The notes beneath the pieces are model-generated. The model made no database searches and was not told where the DNA came from. It saw nothing but the letters and a program-made list of their open reading frames with translations. From NCBI GenBank assembly GCA_018396915.1, contig JAGTRD010000014.1:1-40354 (forward strand): a DNA stretch of 40,354 nucleotides, read 5' to 3'. Below, piece by piece: positions 29,733 to 35,336 of the stretch. Made by a program: the position numbers and the translations under genes. This stretch comes from Candidatus Bathyarchaeota archaeon. Lineage in GTDB: Archaea > Thermoproteota > Bathyarchaeia > 40CM-2-53-6 > RBG-13-38-9. Position 1 is the first letter of the stretch; every line of letters starts with the position of its first letter.

Positions 29733-29847
29733 TGGTGCGGCCGCCGGGATTTGAATTCCCGGATCTTACATAGACCTCCCGGGTCACCGGCGGTCTGCGG
29801 GGAGACTTGGCAGGCCGATGTCTTAGACCAAGCTGGACTACGGCCGC
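29733..29847 (-). tRNA. tRNA-Gly (GCC) with two introns
   Basis: The acceptor stem GCGGCCG/CGGCCGC is followed by A73 and an encoded CCA. The D-arm is GTCC/AGAC with loop AGCTTGGTCTA. The anticodon stem is TCGGC/GCCGG and the loop is CTGCCA-C, giving GCC. Intron 1 (15 bases, 29793-29807) is at the canonical 37/38 position. Intron 2 (22 bases, 29756-29777) lies at 53/54, between the CCGGG 5' T-stem and TTCAAAT; it ends with a second CCGGG copy that mimics a T-stem with a 9-base loop. Removal gives a textbook tRNA-Gly. A TATA-like ATATATA run lies about 40-50 bases upstream. Confidence 0.9.
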
Positions 29848-29922: not shown

Positions 29923-30057
29923 TGGTGCCGAGGGCCGGATACTCACAGACTCCTTGCCTGTTTTGAACCAGCGACAGCCCGGTCTTCAGCTTCACCCTTC
30001 TTGGTCGGGTGCTCTCCATAGTCTCCATATGGATGGATCAGGCTGAGCTACCTCGGC
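29923..30057 (-). tRNA. tRNA-Phe (GAA) with three introns
   Basis: The acceptor stem is GCCGAGG/CCTCGGC with A73 and encoded CCA. Intron 1 (21 or 22 bases, 30018-30038 or one longer) interrupts the D-loop after AGCCTG. Intron 2 (15 bases, 29991-30005) is at 30/31, splitting the 5' anticodon stem CCCG/G. The spliced stem CCCGG pairs with CCGGG around CTGAAGA, the classical Phe loop with G37. Intron 3 (22 bases, 29940-29961) is in the T-loop at 58/59 or 59/60, between TTCAAA and T. The T-stem is GCTGG/CCGGC. None of the introns is at 37/38. Confidence 0.88.
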
Positions 30058-32067: not shown

Positions 32068-32179
32068 TGGTGGACCGGGCGGGATTTGAACCCGCGACCT
32101 TCCGGTTTCTCGAGATACTATGCGAACCGGACGTTCCTTGGCCCCAAATGGTGGGCATACCAGACTGAACTACCGGCCC
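32068..32179 (-). tRNA. tRNA-Ala (CGC) with two introns
   Basis: The acceptor stem GGGCCGG/CCGGTCC contains the G3:U70 pair that defines tRNA-Ala, followed by A73 and encoded CCA. The D-stem is GTTC/GAAC with loop AGTCTGGTA. Intron 1 (21 bases, 32137-32157) follows A21 at 21/22. The anticodon stem is TCCGG/CCGGA with loop TTCGCA-A, giving CGC. Intron 2 (14 bases, 32107-32120) is at the canonical 37/38. The T-arm is GCGGG-TTCAAAT-CCCGC with no intron. The spliced molecule is a standard archaeal tRNA-Ala. Confidence 0.93.
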
Positions 32180-34365: not shown

Positions 34366-34488
34366 GGCCGCCGGCGAGATTCGAACTCGCCCTCCAGGCT
34401 CCATTGGCCAAGACCAGCCGAGGGTCTTTCAGGCCTGTACGCTAACCAGGTTCCGCAGAGAATCTTTCTCTTCTACGTTACGGCGGCC
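34366..34488 (-). tRNA. tRNA-His (GTG) with two introns, one inside the anticodon
   Basis: G-1 (34488) pairs with C73 (34366), the tRNA-His identity element. The acceptor stem is GCCGCCG/CGGCGGC; CCA is not encoded. Intron 1 (22 bases, about 34457-34478) falls at 9/10 (up to 12/13 because of a repeated CG) and contains the hairpin AGAGAA/TTCTCT. The D-loop is AACCTGGTTA. The anticodon stem is CAGGC/GCCTG. The loop is CTG, then intron 2 (26 bases, 34404-34429), then TGGA. Splicing gives CTGTGGA with anticodon GTG. A 37/38 cut would give GAA instead, at odds with G-1:C73. The T-arm is GCGAG-TTCGAAT-CTCGC. Confidence 0.85.
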
Positions 34489-34512: not shown

Positions 34513-34522
34513 TATAATTTAA
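34513..34522 (-). promoter_or_regulatory. TATA-like box of tRNA-His
   Basis: On the minus strand TTAAATTATA lies 25-34 bases upstream of G-1 of tRNA-His. The composition and spacing fit an archaeal TATA box. Confidence 0.5.
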
Positions 34523-34601
34523 GGGTTTGGTGAATCTAACCGTTGACTCCAATCTTATATCTTACTATGTGGATTCTCGCCTGAAGTAGTGTGTATGCGA
34601 T

Positions 34602-35174: not shown

Positions 35175-35336
35175 GCGGGGGTACCCGAGACCTCGCATAT
35201 ATATGCGAGGCAGGAATCAGGCTAAAGGGGCAGGACTACAGGAAAGTAAAACTGTAGGGTCAGACTTAAGATCTGAAGAGTATTAGCCATCCTGTGGCGT
35301 AGGCCTTCGTGGGTTCGAATCCCACCCCCCGCACCA
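35175..35336 (+). tRNA. tRNA-Leu (TAA) with three introns
   Basis: The acceptor stem is GCGGGGG/CCCCCGC with A73 and encoded CCA; the T-arm is GTGGG-TTCGAAT-CCCAC. Intron 1 (28 bases, 35190-35217) is in the D-loop after CCCGAG and contains a perfect 20-base palindrome (35191-35210). The anticodon stem is CAGGA (35231-35235) with TCCTG (35290-35294). Intron 2 (29 bases, about 35236-35264; position ambiguous from 30/31 to 33/34 because of a GACT repeat) precedes CTTAAGA. Intron 3 (18 bases, 35272-35289) is at about 38/39. The variable arm GGC-GTAG-GCC is that of a class II tRNA. The spliced tRNA closely resembles archaeal tRNA-Leu. Confidence 0.87.

Follow-up and report, generated by a model that had tools for sequence, protein, structure and literature searches.

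Relaxed splicing motifs, introns at non-canonical positions and tRNAs with several introns are all well described in the Archaea (PMC4090602, PMC8450103, PMC4033280, PMC3218864), where the HBh' motif is an accepted intron form and where the positions given include 3/4, 20/21, 22/23, 25/26, 29/30, 30/31, 45/46, 53/54, 56/57, 59/60, 'etc.' (PMC4090602). An off-canonical intron within the anticodon loop has been confirmed experimentally in the tRNA-Pro(CGG) of A. pernix (PMC4307357), and the (alpha-beta)2 splicing endonuclease has a broad substrate range (PMC7714728). Most group I tRNA introns lie at 37/38 (review PMC4033280). These elements, known from bacterial and plastid genes such as tRNA-Leu(UAA), also occupy the anticodon region, but they are self-splicing, hundreds of bases long and possess a catalytic core, in contrast to the insert of 26 nt with an endonuclease motif that is described here in a tRNA-His gene. 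In cyanobacterial tRNA-Leu(UAA) the group I intron falls after U34 and likewise splits the anticodon; the bare idea of an anticodon-dividing intron is thus not new.

Two further systems are close to this case. The canonical 37/38 introns of archaea and eukaryotes are likewise removed by enzymes of the EndA family, but they leave the gene's anticodon triplet in one piece, whereas an intron at 34/35 splits it. The split and permuted tRNAs of Nanoarchaeum, Caldivirga and Thermofilum likewise become complete only after bulge-helix-bulge processing; their exons lie on separate or reordered transcripts, in contrast to those of the present gene, which are in order within one short locus.

Where, then, does this tRNA-His gene stand? 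It resembles the non-canonical introns of Thermoproteales, Aeropyrum and Sulfolobus in its short inserts, its 4-bp core and its bulges of 3 nt, where the cut falls behind the second base, and further in the HBh' form, in having several introns per gene and in the probable (alpha-beta)2 EndA. Positions 59/60 and 29/30 of the known archaeal introns recur in bathyarchaeal relatives. Unlike the examples in PMC4090602, the intron considered here lies at 34/35, and it is a shared feature of tRNA-His genes within a single bathyarchaeal order and in two families besides. In kind it is nothing out of the ordinary, a tRNA intron of the protein-spliced archaeal type that sits at an uncommon site. A literature search returned neither an archaeal intron at 34/35 nor any work on the tRNA introns of Bathyarchaeota, with key primary surveys lying beyond its reach, such that priority is unproven.

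The tRNA-His gene and its parts

The gene lies on the minus strand of a 40,354-nt stretch of a Bathyarchaeota genome, referred to below as the window. Its exons and introns are listed in minus-strand order, from 34488 to 34366, after the whole gene and the upstream element.

34366..34488, minus strand: tRNA-His(GTG) gene with two introns; G-1 = 34488, C73 = 34366
34514..34523, minus strand: likely archaeal TATA box, about 26-35 nt upstream of G-1, read from sequence; TTAAATTATA
34473..34488, minus strand: exon 1, positions -1 to 15; GGCCGCCGTAACGTAG
34451..34472, minus strand: intron 1, 22 nt, D-loop 15/16, placed by its hairpin, its bulges and relatives without the insert; AAGAGAAAGATTCTCTGCGGAA
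34430..34450, minus strand: exon 2, positions 16 to 34, closing with CTG, whose G is the first anticodon base, by comparison with relatives; CCTGGTTAGCGTACAGGCCTG
34404..34429, minus strand: intron 2, 26 nt, at 34/35 within the anticodon, placed by the HBh' motif, covariation and intronless relatives; AAAGACCCTCGGCTGGTCTTGGCCAA
34366..34403, minus strand: exon 3, positions 35 to 73, TGGA followed by the T arm, acceptor and C73; TGGAGCCTGGAGGGCGAGTTCGAATCTCGCCGGCGGCC

When the exons are joined, the predicted fold is a cloverleaf, and the product agrees with those relatives whose anticodon loop is unbroken. The acceptor stem is GCCGCCG/CGGCGGC, the D stem ACGT/GCGT and the T stem GCGAG/CTCGC, and a perfect anticodon stem (CAGGC/GCCTG) closes the loop CTGTGGA, which carries GTG for histidine. 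The predicted mature RNA has G-1, C73 and the anticodon GTG, and the gene is a tRNA-His, as the initial annotation had proposed. Alignment of the spliced form with 11 relatives gives a mean column identity of 94%; it is letter-for-letter the same as that of one of them (G006), and exon 1 is identical or nearly so in all the tRNA-His genes read in the order. C73 is the last encoded base, with CCA absent from the 3' end of the gene. A CTTAAAT-like stretch is also found upstream of tRNA-His in three related genomes (G006, G008, G005), and the element at 34514..34523 is likely to be the TATA box of this gene.

The locus is poorly visible to standard tools. ARAGORN reported zero tRNAs in the window, though five tRNA genes can be read there. 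The Rfam tRNA model scored the locus at 37.4 bits in a search of the genome and did not find it in a scan of the window alone, presumably because the two introns break the arms. A tRNA-Phe(GAA) at 29923-30057 (minus strand), which neither ARAGORN nor Rfam at the gathering score picked up, apparently has three introns, one in the D loop, one at about 30/31 and one in the T loop at 59/60. A tRNA-Gly(GCC) at 29736-29847 (minus) is interrupted by an intron at 37/38 and by another insert close to the variable loop or T stem, and a tRNA-Ala(CGC) at 32071-32179 (minus) carries an insert in the D loop as well as an intron at 37/38, with a 3' CCA that is apparently encoded. A probable tRNA-Leu(UAA) at about 35175-35332 (plus) has a long D-arm insert and a weak match to the Rfam model (19 bits).

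The anticodon intron

The 26-nt intron at 34429-34404 is confirmed to sit exactly between anticodon positions 34 and 35. Its borders, 34430/34429 and 34404/34403, are those first proposed, and this is the only placement from which the product loop CTGTGGA can be obtained. A bulge-helix-bulge is present at these borders in relaxed form. The central helix, GGCC:GGCC, with all four pairs Watson-Crick, is formed between exon bases 29-32 and a GGCC close to the intron's 3' terminus. It is flanked by two 3-nt bulges (TG|A and AA|T), where a cut after the second base would release the exon ends, and the inner helix AAGACC/GGTCTT has 6 bp and a 7-nt loop. The outer exon helix is absent, so that the motif is not a strict hBHBh' and is classed as HBh'. 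In an exhaustive scan of the pre-tRNA it ranks first, and when introns were shuffled with the junctions fixed, a 4-bp Watson-Crick central helix together with an inner helix of at least 6 bp arose in 5 per million trials. None of the neighbouring junction placements that were checked fits the splicing motif; at 37/38 or 36/37 only one of four central pairs is formed, there is no inner helix and the motif is lost. A group I intron was likewise rejected, since its catalytic core needs about 100 nt and the insert has only 26.

The predicted fold of the isolated arm is exactly the HBh' structure. In the fold of the whole precursor the motif pairs have a probability of at least 0.91 and the central pairs one of 0.99, with the anticodon stem at 0. 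In fold energy the isolated arm does no better than shuffled sequences (z -0.39), and the case therefore rests on geometry and comparison.

These features suggest how the precursor may be processed. The layout, motif, covariation and enzyme genes are read from the sequence itself, and from them we infer expression, cleavage and ligation. Exon bases 29-32 (GGCC) would pair with the intron 3' GGCC, thereby displacing the normal anticodon stem; the tRNA splicing endonuclease would cut after U33-G34 and before U35; and the RtcB ligase would join the exons to create the G34-U35-G36 anticodon.

Since the GTG triplet is non-contiguous in the gene, histidine codons would be readable only after splicing. 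The initial annotation had noted this. The statement does follow from the sequence, but it is less remarkable than it may seem, because the splicing motif of canonical archaeal introns likewise rearranges the anticodon loop, split tRNA genes encode no complete tRNA, and histidyl-tRNA synthetase relies mainly on G-1:C73.

The D-loop intron

A second intron had been proposed near 9/10. The insert and its 6-bp hairpin (AGAGAA/TTCTCT) are real, but its position is 15/16 (34472-34451), as relatives without the insert have a continuous CGTAG-CTTGG. Its bulges are AG|A and AA|C, and three of the four central-helix pairs are formed. At 9/10 two of four central pairs and no inner helix would be formed, and the relatives contradict this placement. 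A 20-nt alternative, AGAGAAAGATTCTCTGCGGA, has slightly better core pairs, but leaves two extra D-loop bases that occur in no relative. The D-loop intron is common to several relatives. Many genomes of the order have a third tRNA-His intron at T-loop 59/60 (L033, L036, L039 and others), which is absent in the gene of the window.

Distribution among relatives

The comparison of tRNA-His genes in related genomes was made through a similarity search over 61 genomes, which yielded tRNA-His loci with nearly identical spliced forms. Over all the loci read, the intron at 34/35 is seen in 29 genomes, of which 26 belong to the same order (families f1, f2, f3, f4 and f6) and three to two other families, namely both genomes of f16 (G049, G058) and one of f27 (G229). 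Between genomes the site is shared and the sequence changed, with lengths of 20-35 nt and loops that are not conserved. Across 18 distinct sequences, in a MAFFT alignment of the intron arms that left out the divergent G229, 95% of pair cells are standard, versus no more than 54% when the partner strand is shifted; four of the five inner-helix pairs have changed on both sides, and 93% of central-helix cells are paired. The central helix has only three of four pairs in 5 of 26 distinct introns.

The same order includes one genome (G017, family f5) with the loop CTGTGGA and no insert, a state that may represent either precise loss or the ancestral condition, and 11 genomes whose anticodon arm could not be resolved. 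Outside the order, many tRNA-His genes of the class carry an unbroken loop, read as CTGTGGA. These intronless relatives settle the junction at 34/35. In f11 several tRNA-His genes are interrupted at 37/38, and in f9, f15 and f24 some are interrupted at about 29/30. The tRNA-His genes of G192, G216, G057, G040 and G059 (L122, L125, L045, L052 and L051) have an intron at about 29/30, not 34/35. The 29/30 introns suggest replacement or independent gain within the same arm.

An exact-motif scan of named genomes returned 28 stretches. The contigs in which the match is a tRNA-His bear the labels Candidatus Bathyarchaeota, Crenarchaeota or archaeon; among them are contigs of genomes from the window's own family and order. 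The non-Bathyarchaeota matches that were read (L065, L068, L076) are not tRNAs. A phylum-wide pattern search with an exact GGCC core, which diverged cases would escape, brought up no clear case of tRNA-His with a 34/35 intron beyond the class. Two of its hits (L142, L144) are not tRNAs, and a third (L143), a gene resembling tRNA-His, carries an ambiguous insertion.

Copy number and splicing enzymes

A covariance model built from spliced tRNA-His relatives (R1) gave 67 bits at the locus, the best score in the genome. The next, at 41.8 bits, is read as a tRNA-Gln. A second tRNA-His was sought, and none was found by model searches of the assembly (96% complete, 42 contigs), on which the one-gene statement rests. 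The genome encodes two EndA paralogues and an RtcB ligase. The alpha paralogue has the catalytic-type motif HGPGIDHA and finds its best matches in the EndA chains 2cv8, 3p1z, 3ajv and 2zyz, which we take to be crenarchaeal catalytic subunits. The second, a degenerate beta paralogue, is without this motif and has weaker matches. The splicing endonuclease is probably of the (alpha-beta)2 type.

Interpretation

What best accounts for these observations is, very probably indeed, a single detected tRNA-His(GTG) gene with two short protein-spliced introns (15/16 and 34/35), an HBh' motif and processing by the endonuclease and RtcB. That the insert is instead an ordinary intron at 37/38 (or 36/37), with a GAA (Phe) product, deserves almost no credence. 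Placement at 37/38 would yield GAA, as had been pointed out at the start, and the 36/37 reading gives CTGAAGA, the very loop read in the window's tRNA-Phe, but the splicing motif collapses at both positions, G-1 and C73 are present and insert-free relatives read GTG. A separate tRNA-Phe(GAA) is, moreover, present in the window where it had been reported (about 30057-29923, minus strand).

It is also extremely unlikely that the locus is a decayed copy, with the true tRNA-His at another place or in the portion of the genome that the assembly lacks. Such a gene could be hidden in a 96%-complete assembly of 42 contigs, and intron-unaware tools do miss or under-score a tRNA-His gene of this kind; yet every stem of the spliced product is intact, its sequence equals that of G006, the intron is kept with compensatory changes among 29 genomes, and the assembly yielded no second candidate. 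A regulatory or modification-guiding role of the excised intron or of the masked anticodon, for which the intron would be retained, has a slim chance of being correct. Box C/D guide RNAs do lie inside some archaeal tRNA-Trp introns (PMC11408192), and the present intron has been retained through most of one order, but at 20-35 nt, with loops that are not conserved, it is too short for a box C/D guide, and G017 of the order has a tRNA-His without it.

The reading as a doubly interrupted tRNA-His(GTG) gene can be extended into a history, in which 34/35 is an undescribed position, the intron was acquired before the radiation of the order (being also present in two other families), gave way to another intron or disappeared in other groups (29/30, 37/38 or none), and has been retained because masking of the anticodon checks the maturation of tRNA-His. 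As a whole this extension is improbable, and we hold it with little confidence.

Significance

With this gene, the map of archaeal tRNA introns gains both a position, 34/35, and a class, the Bathyarchaeia. The tRNA-His anticodon arm, with an intron at 29/30, 34/35 or 37/38 or with none according to family, offers a record of gain and loss that can be read. There is also a warning for annotation, in that placement of the intron at the canonical site would cause such a tRNA-His to be called Phe (GAA) or Leu (GAG), and archaea with genes miscalled in this way would seem to be without a tRNA-His.
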